DNA from: Opitutaceae bacterium TAV5
GTDB taxonomy: Bacteria; Verrucomicrobiota; Verrucomicrobiia; Opitutales; Opitutaceae
Length of the DNA stretch: 64,000 nt
Reading direction: 5' to 3'
Assembly: GCA_000242935.3 (NCBI GenBank)
Contig: CP007053.1
Location: forward strand, 1,488,001 to 1,552,000
A model generated the notes under the pieces. The model saw only the letters and a program-made list of their open reading frames with translations, made no database searches and was not told where the DNA came from. This document shows, in pieces, positions 4,298 through 43,233 of this stretch. How positions within the stretch are numbered: the stretch's first letter is position 1; each line of letters starts with the position of its first letter. A program made the position numbers and the translations under genes.

Positions 4298-5665
4298 TTA
4301 CTGACGCTGACTGGCAAGCCAGAGACGGGCGGCTTTGAGCTGAACCTCGGTGGGCCTGTGCCCAGCTTCAAGAACGAGGCTCAGATCCTTGGGCGCGGAA
4401 ATGAGATTGTAGGCGGCGTAGATGGAGGTGGGCGGGCAGACCTCGTCATTGTACCCCCATGAATAATGGCCGGGAACGCGGATGCGCCGGGCAAAGTTGA
4501 CGGAGTCATAATATCCGGTGGTGGAGATTTTTCCCGGCGTGACGTTGGGATTGGACGCGCCGTCGGGGCGAGGGGCAAACATATGAGGCCAGCCGCCCGC
4601 GCGGCCATGGAGATAGCCGGTGACATCGCAATAAGCCGGATACCGGACGACGACGCTTTTGACCCGTGAATCGAGCGCAGTGGTGGCAAGGGCCAGAAAG
4701 CCGCCTTGGCTGCCTCCGATGACGGAAAGGTTGTTTCCGTCGTATTCGGGGCGGCTGGCAAGAAAATCGAGAGCGCGGATACAACCAAGGATCACACGGC
4801 GGTAATAGTGCTGAAGAGGGGAATCCAAACCTTGCAGATAATATTCCTTCAGCGGTCCTGTGTACTGTTTTTTATAATACGCATCGGGTTGGTTGACTGG
4901 AATGCCGTGGACTCCTATTTGCAGGGTGATGGCATCCGGTTCGCGTTCTCCATTACGGCGGCTGACTCCGGCGCCCGGGATGTAGAGCGCGCCAGGATAT
5001 CGGCCGGGTGCTTTGGGCACGGAAAGAACGCCATGGACGCGGGGGGAGGATTCAAGGGGATGGCTTTTGGCATCGAGATGCGGCACGGTGCGAAAACTGA
5101 CGTAATAGAGGTCAACGAAGGGGGAGGCCTTTCCGCCAAACGGGGTGATTTCCGGTTCGAGTGAAATCTCCCTGAGCTGGGCAAGACCGTGCCGCCAGAA
5201 CGCATCGAAATCGGGCGGCTCGGTCTGCGTGGGGCGTATTTTTTCCGGGGAGTAGGCGGCGGTGGACAGGCCGCGATGGTTTTGGCCCTTGTAAGCCAAG
5301 CTGACATTGCAGCGAAGGAACCCGGGCCGCTCCAGCGTGCCGGCATCGAGATTGAGGCGCCCTTGTTCGTCGAGGCGGGCGTTTTTCATGGTGACGGGCA
5401 TTTGTTCAGGGCCGATGCTGTAATGCAGGTCGGCGCCGGCGAGGGGCTTGCCATCCATGGTGGCGGTAACGACGAAGCGGGCAGGCTCCCCGCAGGTGTA
5501 GGTCCAGTCGGCGCGATCGGGGCGGATCTTGAGCTGCACGCCGGGGGCGTCGGTCGCGAAAAGGAGCGTTGAAAGAACGAGTGAAAGAATCGCTGGCGGA
5601 AAGACACGAAGGAGGCTGCGGCAGCGGACGCTCGTGGATCGGTTGCAAGGGGATGAGACGGACAT
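4298..5665 (-). CDS. Secreted acetylxylan-esterase-type (CE7-like) hydrolase
   Basis: This is probably an exported alpha/beta-hydrolase that removes acetyl groups from plant polysaccharide. The 455-residue protein starts with a basic stretch and a hydrophobic segment (about residues 18-38), a signal peptide. An N-terminal beta domain covers about residues 45-145. The hydrolase domain begins at P-D-F-D-A-F-W, a CE7 family hallmark. The nucleophile is Ser319 in G-G-S-Q-G-G, with Asp407 in W-G-Y-N-D-E-V-C-P-P-T-S and His436 in E-A-G-H completing the triad. It is the last gene of a minus-strand cassette with pseudopilins and a PEP-CTERM protein. Acetylated xylan or another ester substrate cannot be distinguished. 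Confidence 0.85.
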   Translation of the reverse strand: MSVSSPCNRSTSVRCRSLLRVFPPAILSLVLSTLLFATDAPGVQLKIRPDRADWTYTCGEPARFVVTATMDGKPLAGADLHYSIGPEQMPVTMKNARLDEQGRLNLDAGTLERPGFLRCNVSLAYKGQNHRGLSTAAYSPEKIRPTQTEPPDFDAFWRHGLAQLREISLEPEITPFGGKASPFVDLYYVSFRTVPHLDAKSHPLESSPRVHGVLSVPKAPGRYPGALYIPGAGVSRRNGEREPDAITLQIGVHGIPVNQPDAYYKKQYTGPLKEYYLQGLDSPLQHYYRRVILGCIRALDFLASRPEYDGNNLSVIGGSQGGFLALATTALDSRVKSVVVRYPAYCDVTGYLHGRAGGWPHMFAPRPDGASNPNVTPGKISTTGYYDSVNFARRIRVPGHYSWGYNDEVCPPTSIYAAYNLISAPKDLSLVLEAGHRPTEVQLKAARLWLASQRQ

Positions 5666-9757: not shown

Positions 9758-10657
9758 ATGATAAAGTTGGCTCATGTTGGTATCCGGAATTTCGGCACAA
9801 AGCCGGATCGTTTTGCCCGTCGTTTGAACTGGGAGTTTTATGCGTTGTTGGAGGGCAGGCTTTCGCTGGTGCTGGAGGATGAGTCCGTAAGACCGCAAAA
9901 ACGCCGGGTGGAAGGCGCCAATTTCTGGGTGTTTCCTCCGATGATGCGCTGGATATGGCAGGGGGAACCGGGTGAGTCGGTTGATCGTGTGGCGTTGCAG
10001 TTTACCGACGTGCCGCACTTGCTGGCGTTGCGGGTGCGAAGAGAGGGTTTTTTGGAGCGGCGACTGCTCCGGGAGGATTTGGAGCGAGTAAGGAAGTTGG
10101 GAGAGGAGTTGCTGCCGCTTTACCAGCGCCCCAATCAGTTTGCGTCGATCATCTCTGATCGGGCGATGCTGGATCTGTCGTTGATCGCCTTGAATGATGA
10201 AAAGCCGGTGGAGAGTTCATCGTGGTTTGCCGATCCGATATGGGATCGCTTCGAACATGCGGTGGCGTGGTTCAATCAGCACATGGCGGAGTGCCCGTCG
10301 GTTAATGACGTAGCAGCATATTTACACATCTCACCGACGCAGTTGCGGCGGGATTTTCGTGATGTGGCGGTGGCCCAGGGAAACGACCAGGGATCTCCAA
10401 ATCAGGTTTTCACGCATCTGCGTTTGGTCCGGGCGACGGAGATATTGGCGACAAGCACGTTGACACTCGACGAGGTGGCGGAGACATGCGGTTTCTCAAG
10501 CACTCCGGATTTTTGCCGGGTTTTCAAAAAACATCTTAATTGCACACCGCATACTTGGCGGCGGTTTCCGGCTATGCCGGAAATGTGCAGGCAAAAGCGT
10601 ATGCTGAGCGGTCGCGTACGACTCAAGCCGATCATGCGAATAGAGGAGCCTTCGTGA
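9758..10657 (+). CDS. AraC-family transcriptional regulator
   Basis: This 299-residue protein has an N-terminal cupin-like sensor domain (E-F-Y-A-L-L-E-G-R-L-S-L-V-L around residue 30) and a C-terminal double helix-turn-helix of about 100 residues. It contains V-A-A-Y-L-H-I-S-P-T-Q-L-R-R-D-F and the second helix pair V-A-E-T-C-G-F-S-S-T-P-D-F-C-R-V-F-K-K. It is transcribed away from the minus-strand carbohydrate cassette ending at the esterase gene. The 197-base intergenic region between this start and the BNR gene start should hold the operator. The first in-frame ATG after a stop was used. Confidence 0.9.
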   Translation: MIKLAHVGIRNFGTKPDRFARRLNWEFYALLEGRLSLVLEDESVRPQKRRVEGANFWVFPPMMRWIWQGEPGESVDRVALQFTDVPHLLALRVRREGFLERRLLREDLERVRKLGEELLPLYQRPNQFASIISDRAMLDLSLIALNDEKPVESSSWFADPIWDRFEHAVAWFNQHMAECPSVNDVAAYLHISPTQLRRDFRDVAVAQGNDQGSPNQVFTHLRLVRATEILATSTLTLDEVAETCGFSSTPDFCRVFKKHLNCTPHTWRRFPAMPEMCRQKRMLSGRVRLKPIMRIEEPS

Positions 10658-32908: not shown

Positions 32909-34201
32909 TTACTCCGCCAGCCCGGCAGCCAGCGCCCGGCTGATCGCCTCGTAGCCCCGCGGGTCGAGGTGCGCATCGGTGGCACGGCCCTTGTCGTAGT
33001 ATTTCTGTGACACCATTTCGGCATAAGGGACGAGTTGCGAGAGATCGACGAGCGAGGCGTCGGGAAGCCTTGCGGCAAAGGCGCGGGCGGCTTCGCGGTA
33101 GGACGCGAGCTTGGCGTCCTCCGGATCGCCCAGCGTGTGGCTCACCATGAAAGCGAAATGCAGTGAACCCGCGCCGCCGCCGTTGCGAGTCCAGATGGTG
33201 TCGAGCTCGGTCAGGAGGGCCTGCAGGTTGTCCGCATAACCCTCGGGCGTGGATGATCTGGCCGGCGCGGGACCGAGGCTCGGAGCCTGCGAATTGCGGT
33301 CGTTGAGGCCGGAGGAAATCATGACGATGCCTTTCGCGCGGGAGGCATCGGGCGCGTCGGAAGAAGGCTGGAGACGGAGGATTCCGGCAAAAAACTCGGC
33401 CGCCCGCGCAGGCTTCATCGCACGCAGGCGGGTCACCATGTCGCGCAGGGACTTTCCGCCGGCGGCGTAAAGCGTGTAGTAGGCGATGCCGTTTTTCCGG
33501 CCGGTATTCTCGACGTGGGCAATCGAGACGAGGAAAGGGCCGTTGACCGGTTTCCTCATCGGCACCGGCATGAATTGCAACGGCCAGGCGCGCGCGGCAT
33601 CGGCCGGAAGATCGAGCGTGTAGTGGGCGATCCCGTACTCGCCGGTCACCGGATTGACGGGCGACGGCGCGGCGGCGAGCACGGTCCACGGCTTTTCGTC
33701 GCGCCGGACGACCGGGCTGAAACCGGCGTCGGTGGCGCCGCCCGCTTCGGGAAACGTTCCGTAGTTGAGATGATAGCGGAGAGCCCCGGAAACGCCGACC
33801 GGATGATTGGCCGGAACGGTGAGCAGGCCCGGTTTCCAGGAGAGTTGTTCAGCGGAGCCGGGCGCAACGTACCAGTAGCTGAATGCGCGGTCGGCGAGCC
33901 CGGCGGGAGCAACGGACGGCGGCGGAGCGTCCTTGTCCTGCCACTGGCGATAGAGGAGGAAATCGGTGCCGTAGCAGCCGAAGGTGTCCCCGAGCGCGCG
34001 GGCCATGTGGCGTGACCAGCCGTGGCCGCCAAAACGCTGGTTGGAATCACCGAGGGCGATGACGGCAACGCGCTCCGTCTTCGCCGCAGCAAAGGCGGCT
34101 TTCAGCTTCGGGTCGATGGTGACGCCATCGGCGGCGGAGACTGTAACCGTGAAGGCGCTACAGGCGATTGTGAGGAACGGGAGGAGGGCGGATGGTTTCA
34201 T
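32909..34201 (-). CDS. Secreted SGNH/GDSL-type hydrolase
   Basis: This 430-residue exported protein has a signal peptide (residues 1-23, ending A-D-G). The SGNH blocks are visible: block I A-L-G-D-S-N with nucleophile Ser53, block III S-S-G-L-N-D, and block V D-A-H-L-D near the C-terminus with the catalytic Asp/His pair. A long insertion lies between blocks I and III. Such enzymes deacylate carbohydrates. It is the most distal gene of the third cassette, 116 bases from the large GH2-like gene on the same strand. Confidence 0.8.
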   Translation of the reverse strand: MKPSALLPFLTIACSAFTVTVSAADGVTIDPKLKAAFAAAKTERVAVIALGDSNQRFGGHGWSRHMARALGDTFGCYGTDFLLYRQWQDKDAPPPSVAPAGLADRAFSYWYVAPGSAEQLSWKPGLLTVPANHPVGVSGALRYHLNYGTFPEAGGATDAGFSPVVRRDEKPWTVLAAAPSPVNPVTGEYGIAHYTLDLPADAARAWPLQFMPVPMRKPVNGPFLVSIAHVENTGRKNGIAYYTLYAAGGKSLRDMVTRLRAMKPARAAEFFAGILRLQPSSDAPDASRAKGIVMISSGLNDRNSQAPSLGPAPARSSTPEGYADNLQALLTELDTIWTRNGGGAGSLHFAFMVSHTLGDPEDAKLASYREAARAFAARLPDASLVDLSQLVPYAEMVSQKYYDKGRATDAHLDPRGYEAISRALAAGLAE

Positions 34202-34317: not shown

Positions 34318-37300
34318 TCACCACGGGTTGAAACGATACGGGTCGTCAACCGGATCGAGCGGGCGGACGTAGAAGGTGTCGGTCGTCACGTCGAGTTGCG
34401 GCTCGGCGAGCAGGTCGGCGGGGACGGGCTTGTCGGGGGCATTGCGGGGCTTGCTGATGGCCGCGGCGAAATCGAGATCGCCGGGATCGCTTACCATGCA
34501 GAAAAACCCGAAGCCGCCGCTCCCGGAGGCCACTTTCGCCTCGAGGAGATTCCAGCCCGCTTTCAGCGGCGCGGTGAACCGGAACTCGCCGGCAAAGGGT
34601 GAACGCGCGGGGCGCGGCTCCCGGCTGTGATCGAGACGGATTTTCCCGTTTACGCGGAATTGCATCCAGTAGTCGGCCCCCACCGCAAAGACAGCCTCGC
34701 GATCGCGGCTGCTGTAAACATAGCTGCGGGCGTAACCGATCTTGCCGAGTTCGGCGGGCGTCACCCATTCGAGGTAAACGCGGCCGCTGCTCGCCCGGGG
34801 ACCATACGTGCGCCACTTGGCGGTGCCGAGGTCGAGACCAGGCATGTTGATCTCGCCCTCGCCGATCTCGACGTTGGCGGTGAGGCTGACATCGCCGGCG
34901 TCCTTTTCGGTGGCGGGGGGAGATTCGATCGGAAGGCGGCGGGCGAGCGCGGGGAAGGCGCCGTCACGCGTGGCGGGATCGACCCTCGCGGCGTCGTTCC
35001 AGAGACGCCAGTAGGGGATGTTGACCAGCGGAGCCGTCTTGCGGGTATCGAAGAGGCGGGCGGCGATGGCGTCGCCGGTGCGGGCGCCGAGATTGGTGAG
35101 AAGCTGGCGGTAGAGCCTGGCGGTGTTCCAGTACGGTTTTTCGAGGTTCTTGTCGTTGCTGTCGAGTGGCCGCCAGTCGAGCTGGCAGTAGATCTCGCGC
35201 CCGGCGACACCGGCGGCGGATACAGGGGCAGGCAGTTCCAGGAGGAGACCTTCGAGGGCGAGCGTCGCATTGGCCGGAAGACCGGTCGCCGTAAAACGAT
35301 CCTGCTGGAGGAAGGTGCGCCAGCGGGTGAGTTGAGGGCCGATACCGCGGAGGAGCGGAACGGTGGCCGAGGGTTCGGGCGTGACGCGGGCGCGGCGGAC
35401 AGGGTCGGTCACGAGCGGCAGCGCCGGCGTGGCGGCGGCGGCAAGGGCGTCGGGTTTTTGGGACAGGACAAGAAACGTGCCGCCCCGGGCCGCAAAGGCT
35501 CGCGCCGTTTTCAGTGTCGCGGCGAAGTTCTCCGGTGTGGTCACGGTGGTCGCATCGGGTCCGATCACCAGGATGTCGGTGGCCGGTTCGAGCGTCGGGA
35601 TCGCGGTCACGCCGGAAAGGCGCGCCGCCTCGAAGCCGAGGGAGAAAATCCAGTCCCATCCGTCATCGCCGCCCAGGTAACGGACTCGCCGGCTCTGGGC
35701 CTCCGCCCAGGGAGTGTCGAGGGCCCGGACGATGTTTTGTGCGATGCGGGCGGCGGCAGGTTCTCCGCCGGGCCGGTTGACGAGATCGAGCTGCGAAAAG
35801 AGAATGCCGCCCTTGCCGTGGCGCCATTCGAGAAGCGGACTCCAGGCGAGGTCGAACTCGGCGTCGATCACGGGTGTGAACGCGCCGCGGTGCGGCGTTT
35901 CGATGACGACGGAGGCGACGGCGCCCTGGTTGCCCCAGTGCGGTGGACGGGCCAGCGGCCAGGGTTTCATGCCCTGGCGGGTCTTCGGCAACAGGTCGGG
36001 TTCGCCGCGCCAGTTGGCGAGATCGGAGGCGGCGAGCCCTTCCAGCGCCGGGTGCTCCGCGATACGGGGAAAGGCATGACGCGTCACGATATCCTGAATA
36101 CGAAGGCCCATGGACTCGATCCCCTCGGGCTTCTGTTCGAGGAAAAGCACGCGCAGGCCGCGCGCGATGTGATCGGCGGTGACGGGGAAGGAACCGTCCC
36201 GCGTATGCGCGAGGGCTTCACGGCCGATAACGAGGACATCGGGACGAATGCGGTCGAGATCGGCTCCGGTGGCGACCGGCGTGGCGTTGATGCCGGGGCC
36301 GTTTTTCAGCCAGGCGGCGGTGGGAGCGCCGGGCGCGGGATCGTAAACGGCCCAGCGGGAGCGGAGAGGCGCGACGGCGTTTTCGGCGCGAGGCCAGAAA
36401 GTGAGGGCGAGGGTATCGGTGATTTCTTTCGGCCCGCGTCCCGGGACGGACGGTTTCACCGTGAGCGCGAGCGTGGCATCGGTGCGGGCGGCGACGCCGG
36501 GGGCGACAAATTCGAGCGGATGCTTGAGGATCTGGCCGGGAGCGAGCGTCAGGGTTTCCCGGCCGGTGGCCACGGGCGCCGCCTGACCGTCAACGGTCAG
36601 GGTCCAGGTGGCATCGAGGGTTTGCGGGGAGCCGCCGTCCCAGACGGCGACGATGGTTTTCCGGAACGTCTCGCCGGCGGTGAAGGCATGGTCCCTGGCC
36701 GTGAAGCGTTCGGGCGGGCCGCCGAGGTAAACGAGGAGCGGCTGCATCGTTTCCCGGGAGGCATGGTAGATGGCGTTGGCCCACGGAGGGGCGGCATCGA
36801 GCGTGGCGCGCGCTTCGCTTTCGGTCAGCTCGGTGTAGAAAAAATCGTTGCCCTTGAGCTTTCCGTCGGCATCGAGGCGGGCGGGAGGGACACCGTAGCC
36901 GATGCCGAAATTCCACGGTTTCCAGCCGCCGGCCACTCCCCAGGCACGCCAGGCGCGGTTGGTCTCGCGGGTGAAGAGGGTCTCCCATTCGTCATGCAGG
37001 GTCATGGCGCCGAGCGGCACCAGATCGGCGGAACGCAGATGTTTGCGGTCTGCCTGACGGATGGAGGCGACGAGGTCGACGTAGTCGTCGGTCTCCGCCG
37101 CGTACGCACGGTCGCCGAAATAGACGGCGTGCCATTCCGTGAACTGGGGGATGCGGTGCCACTTGTAGAAGTTGTGCACCCAGGGCGTGCCGTGCTCGAT
37201 GGCCCCCCAGGGACGGGCGTCAGGACGGACAGCCCAGTGCGAGGGAAACTCGATACGCTCCTGCAGCGGCATGAAGTTCAGGTACTGGTTGGGATAATCG

Positions 37301-38889
37301 ATCTCGCCGGCGGCGCCGCAGTGGTGGGTGACGATGCGGGTGGGGTCCACGGCCCTGATGGTGTTGTCGGTCGTCGCATACCAGGGGGCGATGCGGTCCT
37401 CCTCCGCAGGTAATGCTCCGATACGCTCGGGATTTTCGCGGGTGCTGCTGCCGACATTCATGGAGGGAAACCACATGAGGATGGAGGGGTGGTTGCGGAT
37501 GTGGGCGAACCAGAGGCGGCATTCACGCTCGTAGGCACGGATGCCTTCCTCCTTGCTCATGGCGGTGCGCACCAGGCTGACATTGGGCGCGGGCATGAGC
37601 ATGGCGAGACCGCGCCGGTCGGCCTGCTCGATCACGTCGGGGCGGATGGCGCGCATGCCGGGATTGTCGGAATCGGGGACGATGAGCGAACGGCGGCCCT
37701 TGTCCACAAACCACGAGGACGAATTCGGGTGCCACTGGAAGGCGTTGAAACCGACGCCCTCCCAGAAAAGGATCGACGGGTATTGCGGAAAAATGACCGG
37801 AGCCATGCGGAGATGGACGGCGTGGCCGTTGAGCATGATCTCGCGTCCCTCCACCCACACTTCGCGGAAACCGAAGGAAACGGGAGCGGCCTCGTGGACG
37901 GGACGGCCGGCGGAATCGAGGAGAGTGACGCGAAGCACGTAAAGATACCCGTCGCCGAGTTCCCAGAGGCGGGGAGCGGGCCAGGGGAGGCTGACGGTGG
38001 TCGGGGCAGGACCGGACAGGGGGCGGACGACCGGAGGCGGAAGCGGGCCGGAGCGGGCGCCCTCGCCCGCGGGATCGAGAATCTCCACGCGAACGCGGGA
38101 TGCCTCCGCGGCCGGCGAAGGGAGGAGTGCCTCGACGTCGACGTGAAGCGTCTTTTCGCGGACGGAGGGCCGGGCGAATACGCCGGTGATCTCGCCGGCA
38201 AGCGGCCGCAACTCGAACCTCACCAGGCCGGAGAGGCCGGCGGGGAGGTCGCGGCGGACGGCGTCGATGCCGCCCTTGTTGCTGCGTCCGGCATTGTTGA
38301 GAGCCTGCGCGCGGAGCGGGTCCTGCTCCATGGTTTTGGGAACATCGCGCCACCAGCGGGTGATCCGGACGCGAAGCGTGGATTCGGCGCCGGGACGGAG
38401 GCGGCCGGTGACATCCACGCGAGCCTCGGGACCTTCGAGGAAGACAGGTTCGCCGCCATCGATCCACAGCAGGCCGTCGCACTCGAGCTGGTCGAAGGCG
38501 AGCCAGATGCGTTGTCCGGCCCAGTCGGCAGGAACGGAAACGGTGCGTTCGAACCAGCCGTTGTCATGGGCCTTCCAGTCCTTCGGTTTCTTTGCCCAGT
38601 CGGCGAGAGGAGGCTGGCCGGCCGCAGGTTTGACGAGACGCGAGGCACCGCTGGTCCACAGGAAGGGCACGCGAACGATTTCCCAGGCGTCGGGACGCGG
38701 AGCGGTGACGGTGGTTTCGCCGCCAGGCTGGAAGAGCCATTGACCGATGCGCAGATCGTCGCCCGCATCGGCGGCGGCCGGAGTCCATGCGGGCAGCGAA
38801 CGGGCCGCGAATGCGGCGGGAACGAGGAGGGATGTCACCCAGAGAGCGACAGCAACGAAAACGAGGGAGAGGCGGGGAGCGTGGCGCAT
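34318..38889 (-). CDS. Very large secreted GH2-like protein
   Basis: The chosen ATG gives 1523 residues with a signal peptide (L-V-F-V-A-V-A-L-W-V, cut near A-F-A). An N-terminal GH2 jelly-roll domain (W-E-I-V-R-V-P-F-L-W, I-W-L-A-F-D-Q-L-E-C-D-G) and an immunoglobulin-like domain precede a TIM barrel (about residues 370-680). The usual acid/base Asn-Glu is replaced by Asn478-Val479 in W-F-P-S-M-N-V, while Glu565 in G-A-I-E-H-G fits the nucleophile. A beta-rich half with a PA14-like C-terminal part (about residues 1370-1480) follows. It may be an atypical hydrolase or a non-catalytic binding protein. Confidence 0.8.
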   Translation of the reverse strand: MRHAPRLSLVFVAVALWVTSLLVPAAFAARSLPAWTPAAADAGDDLRIGQWLFQPGGETTVTAPRPDAWEIVRVPFLWTSGASRLVKPAAGQPPLADWAKKPKDWKAHDNGWFERTVSVPADWAGQRIWLAFDQLECDGLLWIDGGEPVFLEGPEARVDVTGRLRPGAESTLRVRITRWWRDVPKTMEQDPLRAQALNNAGRSNKGGIDAVRRDLPAGLSGLVRFELRPLAGEITGVFARPSVREKTLHVDVEALLPSPAAEASRVRVEILDPAGEGARSGPLPPPVVRPLSGPAPTTVSLPWPAPRLWELGDGYLYVLRVTLLDSAGRPVHEAAPVSFGFREVWVEGREIMLNGHAVHLRMAPVIFPQYPSILFWEGVGFNAFQWHPNSSSWFVDKGRRSLIVPDSDNPGMRAIRPDVIEQADRRGLAMLMPAPNVSLVRTAMSKEEGIRAYERECRLWFAHIRNHPSILMWFPSMNVGSSTRENPERIGALPAEEDRIAPWYATTDNTIRAVDPTRIVTHHCGAAGEIDYPNQYLNFMPLQERIEFPSHWAVRPDARPWGAIEHGTPWVHNFYKWHRIPQFTEWHAVYFGDRAYAAETDDYVDLVASIRQADRKHLRSADLVPLGAMTLHDEWETLFTRETNRAWRAWGVAGGWKPWNFGIGYGVPPARLDADGKLKGNDFFYTELTESEARATLDAAPPWANAIYHASRETMQPLLVYLGGPPERFTARDHAFTAGETFRKTIVAVWDGGSPQTLDATWTLTVDGQAAPVATGRETLTLAPGQILKHPLEFVAPGVAARTDATLALTVKPSVPGRGPKEITDTLALTFWPRAENAVAPLRSRWAVYDPAPGAPTAAWLKNGPGINATPVATGADLDRIRPDVLVIGREALAHTRDGSFPVTADHIARGLRVLFLEQKPEGIESMGLRIQDIVTRHAFPRIAEHPALEGLAASDLANWRGEPDLLPKTRQGMKPWPLARPPHWGNQGAVASVVIETPHRGAFTPVIDAEFDLAWSPLLEWRHGKGGILFSQLDLVNRPGGEPAAARIAQNIVRALDTPWAEAQSRRVRYLGGDDGWDWIFSLGFEAARLSGVTAIPTLEPATDILVIGPDATTVTTPENFAATLKTARAFAARGGTFLVLSQKPDALAAAATPALPLVTDPVRRARVTPEPSATVPLLRGIGPQLTRWRTFLQQDRFTATGLPANATLALEGLLLELPAPVSAAGVAGREIYCQLDWRPLDSNDKNLEKPYWNTARLYRQLLTNLGARTGDAIAARLFDTRKTAPLVNIPYWRLWNDAARVDPATRDGAFPALARRLPIESPPATEKDAGDVSLTANVEIGEGEINMPGLDLGTAKWRTYGPRASSGRVYLEWVTPAELGKIGYARSYVYSSRDREAVFAVGADYWMQFRVNGKIRLDHSREPRPARSPFAGEFRFTAPLKAGWNLLEAKVASGSGGFGFFCMVSDPGDLDFAAAISKPRNAPDKPVPADLLAEPQLDVTTDTFYVRPLDPVDDPYRFNPW

Positions 38890-39041
38890 GGAACAAAAAT
38901 TCGAGGAGAAAGTGGCTGTTATGAGAATGTAAATACGGGAAAAAATGCGGACAAGGCACCCCGGATGCCCCGGCGGTGGCAGCGCGTTCAACCCGGCCAC
39001 CGGGTCGGGGCGAGGCGCCACCGGACCGGGTGCCTCCGGAG

Positions 39042-39776
39042 TCACCACCAGCGCCAGGGGTTGCCGTTGGCCGGAGTGATGTCGTCGCGCAGTTCCTCGC
39101 GGGTCAGCGCCTTCACGTGGCCGTCGCAGAAACCCATGAGGGCCTTGTTGCCGTTTTCGCGACGGAACGCGCCGAATTCGGTGTTGGTGGGAAGAAGCGG
39201 GGCTTCACCCTTGTTGTGGGCATAATCGGAACCGGATTTTTTGAGCGTGCTGATCCGGTCCACGTTGGATTCCTCGCATTCGCCAAGCAGGATGTAGCGT
39301 GAGGGAACCGGAATGACGCTTGGGCGGAAATTGGCCGAGTTCGAATAAAAGCTGCGATTGATCGATGGCGCGTTTACATGGCGGCCCTGTTCCTTCCACG
39401 GTCTGCTATCGGGAACATTAAAAATGGTGCGCGGATCCCCGCGATGCCGATAACGGTCATCATTCTTGGTTCCGATTTTGTAAGCGACATACGGCGCGAT
39501 ATGATTTTGCCATGAGCCCGGTTCGTAAGTGGGCGATTCGCTATCGCCATTATGCACAGGCGGGAATCGATCCCTGTTTTCCACCGCATAGGCATGGTGG
39601 GCGAGGACGAGTTGCCGGATGTTGCTCGTCGCCCGGGCGGTCATGGCATTTTTGCGGACGCGGCCCGCCACCGGTATGATGATCGCCGCGAGGATGCCGA
39701 TGATCGTGATGACGGTGAGCAGTTCGATGAGCGTGAAACCATGACGGTGTCTGGTTTTCGGGGATATTGTTTTCAT
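39042..39776 (-). CDS. Pseudopilin-like protein
   Basis: The chosen ATG (M-K-T-I-S-P-K-T-R-H-R-H) gives a 13-residue leader ending in Gly before F-T-L-I-E-L-L-T-V-I-T-I-I-G, the prepilin-peptidase site and helix. The 244-residue protein has F-C-D-G-H-V-K-A-L near its end. A much longer upstream frame crosses the LacI intergenic region and was rejected. It is the first gene of the third cassette on this strand and lies divergent to the LacI regulator. Confidence 0.88.
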   Translation of the reverse strand: MKTISPKTRHRHGFTLIELLTVITIIGILAAIIIPVAGRVRKNAMTARATSNIRQLVLAHHAYAVENRDRFPPVHNGDSESPTYEPGSWQNHIAPYVAYKIGTKNDDRYRHRGDPRTIFNVPDSRPWKEQGRHVNAPSINRSFYSNSANFRPSVIPVPSRYILLGECEESNVDRISTLKKSGSDYAHNKGEAPLLPTNTEFGAFRRENGNKALMGFCDGHVKALTREELRDDITPANGNPWRWW

Positions 39777-39905
39777 CAGTGATCGGAAGGCAGGGAAGTT
39801 TTCAGGGATAATCCGGAAGCGGGGCCCCGCCGGCCGGAAAAGGCAGGAGAGGCGGTCAATGGAGAAGAGGGGAGCAGCCTCCCGAACGATGACAACAACG
39901 GCGAT

Positions 39906-39921
39906 ACTTATTGCGATAAGT
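39906..39921. promoter_or_regulatory. Probable LacI-family operator, site 1
   Basis: ACTTATTGCGATAAGT is a near-perfect palindrome with six-base arms. The same site, differing by one base, lies at 43218-43233. It is placed between the divergent pseudopilin and LacI genes and abuts a TTGACT promoter element of the LacI gene. Confidence 0.7.
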
Positions 39922-39949
39922 TGACTCGGCGTTGCCGGTGCCCCGATAT
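39921..39949 (+). promoter_or_regulatory. Probable promoter of the LacI gene
   Basis: TTGACT and CGATAT stand 17 bases apart, and the first hexamer shares its first base with the operator. Transcription would begin within a few bases of the ATG, so the mRNA may be leaderless. The minus-10 match is weak. Confidence 0.4.
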
Positions 39950-39957
39950 CACGTGCC

Positions 39958-40995
39958 ATGCCCAACCAACGTGACATTGCCGAGGCCGCCGGCGTGACCC
40001 AGGCCGCCGTCTCGATGGCCCTGCGCGGCGACCCGTCCATCCCGGAATGCACGCGGCAGCGCATCCGGGAAATCGCGGAAAAACTCGGCTACCGCCCCAA
40101 TGCCTACGTTTCCACCCTGATGGCGCATATCCGCTCGGGCCGTCCGCCGCGCGACAAGGGCTGCATCGCCGTCATCGTTGACGGGCTCTCGGAGAAAGAC
40201 TGGCTGCGCGGCGAGACTCCGCGGCTCCAGTACCGGGGTATCGCGCAACGCGCCCTGGCCCTGGGTTTCCACACCGAGTGTTTTTACCTCGGCGACACGG
40301 ACCCGACCATGAGCAAGATCAACCGCATCCTCCAGGCACGCGGCATCAACGGCGTGATCCTCGCCGCGCCCCGCAAGCTGGCGCGGACCCGCATCGACAT
40401 GGACTGGTCACGCTACGCCGTCGCCACTATCGCCTACTCGTGGACGCCGCCTCTCGTGGACCGTGTGGCCAGCCATCACCGGCACTCGGTGGACGTGGCG
40501 TTTGGCCAGCTGGCAAAGCGCGGCTATCAACGCATCGGCATGTGCCTGCCGCCCGACGCGGTCGAAGGCGTCGATTCCAACTGGCTCGCCGGCTGGTACA
40601 TCGCCCGGCATCGCATGCGCCCGTCACGCCGCATCCCGCTTTTTGCCGGCAGGCCCGACATCACACCCTTCACCCGCTTCCGGGCCTGGTTCCAGAAGTG
40701 GAAACCCGACGCCCTCCTCTGCATCATGGGACATGAAACCGAATGGCTCGACCAGCTCGGCCTGTCTGCCCCGCGCGATATCGGGCTGGTCTGTATCAAC
40801 CGCCCGCTGGGATCGCATTTTTCCGGCCTCGAGGAGCGCCACGAAACCATCGGCGCCGCCACACTCGATCTCGTCGCGGCCCGTATCCGGAATAACGAGT
40901 ACGGGCTTCCCGAAGAGCCCAAGCTCATCCTCATCGACGGACGCTGGCATGACGGGGAAACGCTGCGACCTGCGCCGGCAGGCGAAGTTTTGTAG
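39958..40995 (+). CDS. LacI-family transcriptional regulator
   Basis: This 345-residue protein has a LacI helix-turn-helix at its very start (R-D-I-A-E-A-A-G-V-T-Q-A-A-V-S-M-A-L, residues 5-22, then I-A-E-K-L-G-Y-R-P-N-A-Y). A periplasmic-binding-protein-like sensor domain follows (G-V-I-L-A-A-P, R-I-G-M-C-L-P-P, G-L-V-C-I-N-R-P-L). The hinge lacks the usual A-x-x-L form and reads Y-V-S-T-L-M-A-H-I-R. It probably binds the two ACTTAT-N4-ATAAGT sites here and so controls itself and the flanking carbohydrate cassette. The ligand, presumably a sugar, is unknown. Confidence 0.92.
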   Translation: MPNQRDIAEAAGVTQAAVSMALRGDPSIPECTRQRIREIAEKLGYRPNAYVSTLMAHIRSGRPPRDKGCIAVIVDGLSEKDWLRGETPRLQYRGIAQRALALGFHTECFYLGDTDPTMSKINRILQARGINGVILAAPRKLARTRIDMDWSRYAVATIAYSWTPPLVDRVASHHRHSVDVAFGQLAKRGYQRIGMCLPPDAVEGVDSNWLAGWYIARHRMRPSRRIPLFAGRPDITPFTRFRAWFQKWKPDALLCIMGHETEWLDQLGLSAPRDIGLVCINRPLGSHFSGLEERHETIGAATLDLVAARIRNNEYGLPEEPKLILIDGRWHDGETLRPAPAGEVL

Positions 40996-41074
40996 GGCCG
41001 TCGCTTGTCGAAGGCCACGAATACAGCCGGATGCTTCGTCCTGCCGACGCGGCACGCCGACAAGCGGCGGCCCT
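40994..41074. repeat. Inverted repeat between convergent genes
   Basis: AGGGCCGTCGCTTGTCG and CGACAAGCGGCGGCCCT pair at 16 of 17 positions with a 47-base spacer. The left arm overlaps the stop codon of the LacI gene, and the right arm ends 27 bases before the stop of the convergent PEP-CTERM gene. It could act as a two-way terminator although it has no T-run. Confidence 0.6.
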
Positions 41075-41101
41075 CTGCATTTTCTCCGGCCTCCGGTCCG
41101 G

Positions 41102-43171
41102 TTACCTGATTCTGCGGCGGACAATCACCGCCGCCGCCACGGCCAGGGCACCGGCGGCCAGAGCCGCCGTCGCGGGTTCGGGGATCGCCGAGATCCCGGT
41201 CACCGTCAGCACCAGATCGCGACCGTTCACGCCGCCGGTGTAGCTGGCCACCCATGTCACCCAGGTGTCTCCCAAGGTCGAGATGATGGTCTCGCCCTCG
41301 GCCAGATTGCTGAATGTTCCGCCGATGGCGCTGTCACCCGTATTGCTCAGGACGGTGAACGTATCGTTGAGGGAAAGGCCGCCGGCGTCGCCGGTAACAT
41401 TGAAGTTGAAATACACGCCGCTTCCGATGGTGACGCCGTGGGCCGTTACCGCCTCCGCGGCCGCACCTGCTGAAGTGTCCAGCGTGAAGGACAGTTCGGC
41501 GTCAGATCTGAACTCGAGCCCGCCTGTCGTGGAGAAGCCGCCAAACCCGCCGCCGACGGCGAGGATCGCATCGCGGGAACCGCTCCCGTTGCCGATCGCC
41601 ACCTCGCCCGTCGTGCTGCCCGCTCCGCCGAAGATGCCCGCGTTGACGGTGACGGCGCTGGTCAGCGAACCGTCCACGACAAAGGTGCCCGCGTTCACCG
41701 TGGTGGCGCCGGTGTAGGTGTTGGTTCCGGTCAGGATCCACTTGCCCGAGCCTGTCTTGGTGAGGGAGGTCGTGCGGGCGCTGTTGGCCTCGACGGCCGG
41801 CGCATAATCTCCGATGGTGACGGCCAGCGTGTTGTCATCCGTGTTGGTGCCACCCAGCGTGAGGCCGCGACCATAGGAGGTGCTCGATCCGAGGCCGATG
41901 TCGCCGGTGTTGGTGAACCGGAGTGCTCCGGTGCCGGAGGATTCGATCCGGGCATTGCGTTGCACGATGAAGAGGCGGTCGGTGCTGTCTCCCCCGCCGA
42001 TGTAGCGCAACGTCGTCGTACGATCTCCCCAGGTGCCCCACACCAGGTTGGACGCGTCGCCGGAAGACGCGCCGATGGAGCTGGCCTCGCCGCCATTCGC
42101 CAGTTTGACGACCTCCAGCACGCCGCCGCCCGTCAAACTGGTGCGTCCGGTATAGGTATTGGCCACGTTGGACAGGACAACCGTGCCGCTGTTGCCGGCA
42201 GGGTTGATCTCCAGTCGCATGGCGCCGCCTTCGTCATTGGTGATCGCCCCCGAGATTTCCAGAACGACATCCGAGGCACTGGTCTGCGCAGGGCCGGCTC
42301 TCAGGTTGAGGATATTGGCGTAGGTGCCCCCGGCGATTTCCGACGTGTATGTGAGTCGGCCCGCCGTCCCTGCGTGATTGATGGAGACCGGTCCCTGACC
42401 GCCGTTGACGACGACGCGCCGGTCGGTGGTCTGGTCGGTGTTTCCGATGTAGTTCAGCTGACCGTTCCGGGCCAGGGTGATCGTGCCGTTCTCGACCGTC
42501 GTGGCGGATCCCAGCGCGGAAGGGCCCTCGCCCACGTTTTTGATGGAGGTGAAATTCAACTGGCCCCCGAGCGACAGCGGTGCAGTGAAGGTATTGTTGT
42601 CGTTGGTCAGCGTCGTCGTGAAGTTGGCGTTGTTGGCAAACTGGAGACGTCCGTTGCCCGAGGCCGTGCCGGTGACCAGCGCGTCGATGATCAGGGTGCC
42701 GATCGTCCCCGAGGAGGGACCGCGCTGGATGGTCCGTGTGGTTGTGATCTCCCCGAAATCGAGCGTGATTCCGCTGCCGATGGTCACGGACCCCGCGCCG
42801 GTGGCACCCGGCATGACAATATTCCCGCTCAGGGAAATCACCCGGTTGCTGCCCGTGATCACCAGATCGAGACCCGGACCGGTCCAGCCGAAGTTCAGGT
42901 TCGTCCATGAAACGTCGTCCGACAAGGTGAGCTCCGACGACTCCGTATTGCCGGTAAAGTTACCGTCGATCGTGTCGCCGGTCCAGTTGCTCGCGTCGTT
43001 CAGATCCGTGCCCGTGCCACCCGCGCCCGCTCCCGTCCATTGCGCCTGCAAGATACAGGGCAGTAACAGTACTCCTGATACGATTGTCCTCCACCGCAGG
43101 CGGAGCAGATTCAGTGACGGACGGACACCACCGGAAAATCCGGTCTCGATTTCGGGATAGAGGGTCTTCAT
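41102..43171 (-). CDS. Autotransporter-repeat PEP-CTERM surface protein
   Basis: This 689-residue exported protein has a signal segment at about residues 28-43 (T-I-V-S-G-V-L-L-L-P), then a long Gly/Thr/Asn-rich beta-helix with autotransporter-associated strand repeats such as T-Y-T-G-A-T-T-V-N-A-G-T and G-S-G-K-W-I-L-T-G-T-N-T-Y-T-G. The C-terminus is I-P-E-P-A-T, a hydrophobic helix and V-R-R-R-I-R, an exosortase sorting signal. There is no outer-membrane beta-barrel. An operator identical but for one base to that of the LacI gene lies 47 bases before its start. Confidence 0.9.
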   Translation of the reverse strand: MKTLYPEIETGFSGGVRPSLNLLRLRWRTIVSGVLLLPCILQAQWTGAGAGGTGTDLNDASNWTGDTIDGNFTGNTESSELTLSDDVSWTNLNFGWTGPGLDLVITGSNRVISLSGNIVMPGATGAGSVTIGSGITLDFGEITTTRTIQRGPSSGTIGTLIIDALVTGTASGNGRLQFANNANFTTTLTNDNNTFTAPLSLGGQLNFTSIKNVGEGPSALGSATTVENGTITLARNGQLNYIGNTDQTTDRRVVVNGGQGPVSINHAGTAGRLTYTSEIAGGTYANILNLRAGPAQTSASDVVLEISGAITNDEGGAMRLEINPAGNSGTVVLSNVANTYTGRTSLTGGGVLEVVKLANGGEASSIGASSGDASNLVWGTWGDRTTTLRYIGGGDSTDRLFIVQRNARIESSGTGALRFTNTGDIGLGSSTSYGRGLTLGGTNTDDNTLAVTIGDYAPAVEANSARTTSLTKTGSGKWILTGTNTYTGATTVNAGTFVVDGSLTSAVTVNAGIFGGAGSTTGEVAIGNGSGSRDAILAVGGGFGGFSTTGGLEFRSDAELSFTLDTSAGAAAEAVTAHGVTIGSGVYFNFNVTGDAGGLSLNDTFTVLSNTGDSAIGGTFSNLAEGETIISTLGDTWVTWVASYTGGVNGRDLVLTVTGISAIPEPATAALAAGALAVAAAVIVRRRIR

Positions 43172-43217
43172 GTCTTACCTGTCTGAAATCTCTCCCCGGA
43201 CGGTCAATCGGGGCATC

Positions 43218-43233
43218 ACTTATAGCGATAAGT
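43218..43233. promoter_or_regulatory. Probable LacI-family operator, site 2
   Basis: ACTTATAGCGATAAGT differs by one base from the site in front of the LacI gene. On the minus strand it contains TATAAG, which could be the minus-10 element of the PEP-CTERM gene, so binding would block transcription. Confidence 0.7.

Follow-up and report, generated by a model that had tools for sequence, protein, structure and literature searches.

A putative palindromic operator set ten base pairs before a −35-like TTG connects a LacI-family regulator gene with pseudopilin and PEP-CTERM genes in Opitutaceae bacterium TAV5

A 64,000-nt stretch of contig CP007053.1 of Opitutaceae bacterium TAV5 (the window, to which positions refer unless prefixed C1, which denotes genome coordinates) contains two 16-bp palindromes that differ at a single base and precede a pseudopilin gene and a PEP-CTERM protein gene, respectively, the first of them also lying in front of the divergent gene of a LacI-family regulator. 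Both sites stand exactly 10 bp upstream of a −35-like TTG on the target strand and both have a central CG displaced by one base from the dyad; exact copies are rare in the genome, the same geometry recurs at other LacI-family genes of TAV5 and its relatives, and the half-sites agree with the recognition helices of the regulators. The arrangement suggests that the pseudopilin and PEP-CTERM promoters are probably activated by the regulator, whereas the regulator gene would be autorepressed. TAV5 comes from a termite hindgut and has a chromosome of 7,317,842 bases and a plasmid of 99,831 bases (PMC4358385), 7,417,673 bases (7.42 Mb) in total.

The two 16-mers are present as an earlier note on this DNA had claimed. 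Operator 1, ACTTATTGCGATAAGT (39906–39921, minus strand), is located between the divergent genes of the 244-aa pseudopilin (39042–39776, minus strand) and the 345-aa LacI-family regulator (39958–40995, plus strand), in the LacI promoter region as proposed and 36 bases from the LacI ATG; towards the pilin gene, its candidate target, it reads ACTTATCG-CA-ATAAGT. Operator 2, ACTTATAGCGATAAGT (43218–43233, minus strand), reads ACTTATCG-CT-ATAAGT towards its own candidate target, the gene of a 689-aa PEP-CTERM protein (41102–43171, minus strand), and is separated from the annotated ATG by 46 bases and not 47 as previously stated. The description of both sites as near-perfect palindromes holds for the outer six pairs, which are perfect, and fails for the centre, where the CG is one base off the dyad at both sites; a CG at the dyad is usual for the LacI/GalR family, although not strictly defining. 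The hexamers TTGTCA (39890–39895, minus strand) and TTGACC (43202–43207, minus strand), putative −35 elements of the pilin and PEP-CTERM promoters, respectively, start exactly 10 bp past their operators.

Within the window, only these two sites match ACTTAT-N4-ATAAGT with up to two mismatches in the 12 fixed positions, and ACTTATNGCGATAAGT with up to three mismatches is likewise confined to the two places, giving four matches over both strands, a number reached in none of 100 shuffles. The genome search for ACTTAT-N4-ATAAGT that the earlier note had proposed returns three exact places, compared with none for the reversed control and about 0.03 expected from composition, and the full signature ACTTATCGNNATAAGT-N10-TTG without mismatches is found at exactly two places genome-wide, which are the two operators. 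With two mismatches allowed, there are 34 places versus 61 for the reversed control, so that only near-exact copies are informative. A pair of palindromes arisen by chance and unconnected with the regulator would fit the two or more window matches seen in 2 of 100 shuffles at two mismatches, as well as the existence of a third exact copy elsewhere, but it is contradicted by the genome-wide rarity, the placement before both genes, the agreement of helix and half-site and the replicated architecture; such an origin is hardly credible and was rejected on rarity and replication, and the two sites are confirmed as real and specific. The third exact copy (C1:3831991, position 9992 of locus L085) lies between a PEP-CTERM gene and a gene for a 978-aa protein without a Pfam match at E 0.001; it was rejected as a sure member of the regulon, as its centre is non-CG and CTG takes the place of TTG.

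The TAV5 genome has at least 150 LacI helix-turn-helix matches above the family cut-off among 150 of 250 candidates, and a protein search adds two more. The operator survey covered the 20-kb loci of 132 of these 152 known LacI genes, and a 16-mer with perfect outer six pairs lies no more than 120 bp upstream in 17 of the 132 (4.3 in shuffles, 4 inside genes). The centres of such palindromes have a clear polarity. Read in the LacI direction, perfect-arm sites have the centre NNCG in 10 cases and its reverse in none, with 0.4–0.5 each way in shuffles, and sites with five of six pairs give 26 and 9, with about 7.5 each way. Seen from the target gene the centre is CGNN. This includes six sites of the class that are not near a LacI start and precede PEP-CTERM and other genes, five of them with the TTG and one with TCG.

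The TTG was first found by inspection on chosen sites and then tested by offset spectra and in relatives. When 33 target-strand sites are aligned on the operator, it stands out exactly 10 bp downstream. Among the LacI-proximal off-dyad sites of TAV5, 15 of 21 have TTG at offset 10, other offsets having a mean of 0.28 and a maximum of 2, and among the other TAV5 palindromes the count is 12 of 70 (mean 0.94, maximum 4); the corresponding counts for the LacI strand are one and none. Palindromes of the surveyed stretches taken regardless of LacI position, a collection that partly overlaps with the 21 LacI-proximal sites, follow the same pattern, with 14 of 55 for perfect-arm CGNN sites (other offsets: mean 0.67, maximum 4) and 41 of 962 for those with five of six pairs, compared with 10.6 (standard deviation 3.4, maximum 19). 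Of the latter 41 sites, 27 lie within 300 bp before a gene start, including 10 PEP-CTERM and 3 pilin genes, as opposed to 105 of 915 palindromes without TTG, with 7 of each; the enrichment of PEP-CTERM genes has a Fisher value of 0.0002, both for this label alone and for either label. These labels, like those of the paired-site survey described below, come from our own gene caller and patterns, which undercount pilins and missed the pilin of the present locus.

In a first set of relatives, TTG stands at 10 bp in three of six off-dyad sites, one of which (L087, a locus of genome G001) belongs to the discovery set. A second set of 80 loci gives 10 of 11, the remaining site having TCG, and eight of eight once three TAV2 discovery loci are left out, a figure that corresponds to fewer independent cases, as the members of the pairs L212/L214 and L255/L256 share their operator and differ little in the spacer. 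In this second set, TTG at 10 bp is absent from all eight CG-at-dyad palindromes and all five reversed ones, and is present in 3 of 49 with other centres (mean 0.86). Two further groups of sites with TTG at +10 may be mentioned. ACTTTCCACGTAAAGT occurs in two genera, upstream of LacI at locus L107 (genome G059) and at C1:2207311 of TAV5, where the helices are similar (SHTTVSL), and variants of GGTTTACGCGTAAACC at C1:3493985, 3498267 and 3504093 precede a PEP-CTERM gene and further genes of TAV5 and could represent another regulon.

The TTG would correspond to the −35 element of the target promoters. In an alignment of 59 promoters on their TTG or TCG, the two bases A and T of NANNNT are commonest at offsets 23 and 24 (13 and 8 of 59, typically about 2), which are spacers of 17 and 18 bp; the peak is post hoc over 52 offsets, and the full TANNNT is not enriched at these offsets in the same 59 promoters. 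With TTG at −35 to −33, the operator dyad would be placed at about −53.5. The TTG could otherwise be part of an extended operator or be shared by descent through cassettes copied together with their intergenic DNA, which would fit its first recognition on a chosen site set and the paralogy of many cassettes. Yet the arms diverge freely where the spacing and the TTG stay constant, the TTG is also found at separate PEP-CTERM promoters inside one cassette, a −10-like signal occurs at sigma-70 spacing from it, and it recurs at 10 bp from the LacI-independent perfect-arm off-dyad palindromes counted above; both alternatives to a −35 element appear quite unlikely.

The relation of the sites to the regulators themselves is seen in the recognition helix, which was readable in 38 of the 41 regulators with a marked site (TTG in all but one, which has TCG). 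Among pairs less than 40% identical, those that share at least two of the three contact residues differ at 5.18 of the 12 arm positions compared with 7.40 for the others (96 and 537 pairs), and none of 1000 permutations gave an agreement as strong. The helix VTQA[A/T]VSMA[L/F] is found with CTTAT half-sites at three loci: in the present regulator, which has VTQAAVSMAL; at TAV5 C1:1110148, where the regulator is 33% identical to the present one and VTQAAVSMAF goes with GCTTAT/ATAAGC; and at L224 of Spartobacteria LR76, with VTQATVSMAL and GCTTAT/ATAAAC. The centres of the latter two sites, GCGT and TGAT, respectively, differ from those of the present locus although the half-sites agree, hence the helix predicts the arms and not the centre. 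The agreement ties the operator to the protein by more than neighbourhood.

The centre may be related to the hinge. The present regulator has Val at residue 51 and Leu at residue 54, corresponding to residues 53 and 56 of the lac repressor, Ala and Leu, respectively, and the subfamily profile 6–54 aligns with residues 8–56 of the lac repressor (1efa). The position of the usual, though not strictly defining, hinge Ala is Val in 11 and Ile in one of 12 aligned subfamily proteins, and the Leu is invariant in all 12; among the surveyed TAV5 regulators the former position is Val or Leu in 73 of 89 readable hinges, those of 43 of the 132 proteins being unreadable by the pattern. Regulators with hinge Val have 12 NNCG and no CG-at-dyad sites, and those with hinge Ala one and three, respectively (Fisher 0.007), which is suggestive of an association between hinge Val and the off-dyad centre.

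The link between the regulator and its two targets is supported by the replication of similar wiring in other LacI cassettes with operators of their own. A second arm-matched palindrome is found in the 20-kb locus of 8 of the 132 LacI genes, compared with a mean of 2.45 and a maximum of 5 in 20 swaps, and in four of the eight the partner has exact arms: the present locus, L149 (TTTTAA-N4-TTAAAA), L151 (TTTGAA-N4-TTCAAA) and L053 (C1:404837–424836), in which ACGTTA-N4-TAACGT is present in four exact-arm copies at locus positions 5012, 9103, 10199 and 15848. The partner is located 46–196 bp before a PEP-CTERM gene in five of the eight paired loci, namely the present one, L053, L079, L149 and L151. 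The L053 copies precede the LacI and divergent gene, a PEP-CTERM gene and two large genes, and each is followed by an A-rich stretch with TGG or TCG at +10. Divergent LacI–pilin pairs number 16 among the matches listed, compared with 0.8 (maximum 4) after circular shifts, in a genome with at least 150 pilin matches among 150 of 297 candidates and at least 148 PEP-CTERM matches among 150 of 314. Other cassettes have among their targets or neighbours a rhamnosidase, heparinase II/III-like proteins, an acetylesterase and a rhamnogalacturonase-like protein. Of 10 cassette proteins scanned, 7 match a Pfam family at E 0.001, two of these without reaching the cut-off of the family. In a search of 57 genomes, TAV5 and its genus mate have at least 100 LacI matches each and the other genomes 0–54.

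The compact regulon proposed in the earlier note is supported in so far as one private operator is common to the LacI, pseudopilin and PEP-CTERM genes and comparable wiring is found elsewhere. A second operator in every cassette of the subfamily was considered and rejected, as among its 13 members two copies of the own LacI-proximal site with up to three mismatches are found only at the present locus; nine LacI-proximal sites of this subfamily were picked by eye, and the four members without a site were scanned with the consensus only. Among other placements, a site precedes a target operon away from LacI at C99 of G001 and at TAV5 3102, and at G046 1246 it lies just downstream of its own LacI gene, ahead of the next gene. 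At L159, sites at 4390, 9040 and 10261 form a CG-at-dyad set, TGATATCGGTATCA, before LacI, a pilin gene and another gene, with TTG at +3 of the 16-mer, and the LacI protein has the usual hinge Ala.

Taken together, these features are consistent with a model in which a LacI-family dimer binds both 16-mers, each of which would be part of a composite promoter made of private arms, an off-dyad CG, a 10-bp spacing of about one helical turn and the TTG of the −35 element, completed by a weak −10 about 17–18 bp beyond the TTG. With its dyad near −53.5, the bound regulator would contact RNA polymerase and switch on the pseudopilin gene, perhaps together with the GH2-like and SGNH genes downstream of it, and at the same time the PEP-CTERM gene. 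Operator 1 is at the same time part of the LacI promoter region, so the regulator would probably limit its own synthesis. The outcome would be a jointly expressed set of proteins by which one glycan is encountered, held and cut. Binding by the regulator, activation, autorepression and a glycan effector are all what we infer from this arrangement.

The earlier note had called the regulator a sugar-type repressor, a label not supported as stated, given that on the target strand a −35-like TTG follows the site at a fixed distance of 10 bp. A classical repressor of the LacI, pilin and PEP-CTERM genes, released by a sugar and holding back RNA polymerase or an unseen activator from its upstream position, would agree with the location of operator 1 within the LacI promoter region and with the known members of the family: sugar genes are the targets of most characterised LacI-family proteins, the regulons studied are local in 90% of cases, and autoregulation is seen in 72% of those studied (PMC4052901). 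However, steric repression requires neither that the distance to TTG stay at 10 bp nor that the site always face the target, and the off-dyad class shows both of these features in TAV5 as well as in its relatives. Contact with RNA polymerase accounts more readily than steric blocking for the constant one-turn spacing and constant polarity, and classical repression, the main rival, seems the less plausible explanation, with rather low likelihood.

Several observations weigh against activation through a composite promoter and against its generality. First, GalR, a member of the same family, can repress from upstream. CcpA, too, represses the lev operon as an exception to its upstream activation (PMC3463425). 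Next, the promoters themselves are indistinct: a clear −10 is not seen at either promoter of the present locus, and the best TATAAT match in 27 promoters does not exceed that of shuffles (3.15 versus 2.92). In the upstream regions of 11 tRNA genes the −10 boxes are mostly poor as well, and the best-scoring TTGAC hexamer occurs in two of them, both with an imperfect −10, so a weak −10 alone is no argument for dependence on an activator. The annotated PEP-CTERM ATG (position 43171) coincides with the predicted transcription start, which means that the mRNA is leaderless or that the start codon or the promoter is misjudged; an ATG 36 bases after TTG occurs in 4 of 39 cases, with a mean of 0.58 per offset in this post hoc count. 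Finally, the geometry is far from uniform. Most of the 132 surveyed LacI genes have no perfect-arm palindrome, and only three of the eight paired LacI genes (the present locus, L149 and L151) have the whole TTG-at-10 element at their second site. The centre differs at the partner sites of L053, L079, L159 and L180. In L053, the largest set with four sites, there is no CG centre and TGG or TCG stands at +10; TGG is also found at the L079 partner, in L159 the TTG is at +3, and L180 has none. In the remote paralogue at C1:1110148, the CG lies at the dyad and the hinge residue is Met.

Activation of the pilin and PEP-CTERM promoters with autorepression of LacI nevertheless remains the favoured interpretation. 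Its extension to a Verrucomicrobiota class of LacI-family activators, with a hinge lacking the usual Ala, a CG displaced from the dyad towards the target and one fixed composite element that serves numerous paralogous regulators, each connected with a separate cassette of pseudopilin, PEP-CTERM and glycan-enzyme genes and together forming a main glycan-sensing logic of TAV5, is offered as a tentative proposal with something short of an even chance.

The proteins encoded at the locus are recognised with varying clarity. In the regulator, the helix-turn-helix domain PF00356 scores 44.7 bits against a cut-off of 27, and the periplasmic-binding-protein-like effector domain PF13377 barely passes with 27.8 against 26.5; a PDB profile search with the regulator gave no matches at E 1e-10 and 46 at 0.01, and a ligand is not indicated. 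The pseudopilin has an N-methylation motif (PF07963, 33.6 bits, cut-off 21.2) and a DUF1559 domain (PF07596, 23.9 bits, cut-off 23.3). The PEP-CTERM protein contains autotransporter-type beta-strand repeats and ends in the tail IPEP...RRRIR; PF07589 is below its cut-off of 20.7 in the whole protein (18.3 bits) and above it in the six-frame search (22.9 bits), and the exosortase family PF09721 has four matches above cut-off in the TAV5 genome. Downstream of the pilin gene are genes of a 1523-aa GH2-like enzyme (34318–38889, minus strand) and a 430-aa SGNH/GDSL-like esterase (32909–34201, minus strand), the latter with a weak Pfam match below the curated cut-off and no NCBIfam match. Both are possible members of the pilin transcript. 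No operator copy beyond the two sites precedes either gene in the window, and a terminator scan from position 38800 on, with the SGNH gap outside its range, called no terminator between the pilin and GH2 genes. By eye, the minus strand of the pilin/GH2 gap has a short inverted repeat near 38940 (about 38925–38965), with six T 9 bases later. GH113 and IclR genes are found near operator 2, both outside the two-promoter pair.

Local LacI regulons as such are well known, as are the many local, separately regulated glycan cassettes of surface proteins and enzymes in the polysaccharide utilisation loci of Bacteroidetes. TAV5 likewise has many local glycan cassettes, with pseudopilins and PEP-CTERM proteins recurring beside the regulators. 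The local LacI sugar regulons described by Ravcheev et al. (2014, PMC4052901) resemble the present one in the even palindrome near the regulator, the few adjacent targets and the carbohydrate enzymes. In contrast, the CG is central there, for 1173 of 1251 regulators with even motifs, whereas in the TAV5 class it is one base off the dyad in a constant direction, and the largest group average in that study is 32 LacI genes per genome, compared with at least 150 in TAV5; the stem "verrucomicrobi" is absent from its main text. CcpA sites upstream of the −35 element activate ackA, pta and ilvB in Bacillus in a helix-face-dependent manner (PMC3463425), and the TAV5 case is alike in having a LacI-family dimer site at a fixed helix face upstream of a putative −35 element; CcpA, however, is global and works with a partner protein, whereas the TAV5 regulators have private arms and local targets, with activation here only predicted. 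The co-variation of helix residues with half-site bases is shared with the recognition code of Camas et al. (2010, PMC2978694), which associates the central CG with conservation of Ala and Leu in the hinge, the Leu wedging the operator centre; that hinge Ala is mostly Val or Leu in TAV5. The nearest report found is that of Verruconatronum alginivorum, another verrucomicrobial genome with a pseudopilin beside polysaccharide-degrading genes, in which a pseudopilin is over-expressed with alginate genes and one pseudopilin has 67 homologues in the genome, the words LacI and PEP-CTERM being absent from the main text (PMC13274419). In the open-access literature no account was found that describes LacI operators from Verrucomicrobiota, a fixed LacI-operator/−35 element or PEP-CTERM genes under LacI control.

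If the proposed wiring is true, the helix sequence together with the [palindrome]-N10-TTG element would allow one to predict for each cassette the surface proteins and enzymes that respond to the same glycan in a poorly studied phylum. Pseudopilins and PEP-CTERM proteins would be placed in glycan regulons, and the many paralogous regulators would provide a large natural set in which to test how a LacI dimer reads an asymmetric operator centre and whether it activates.

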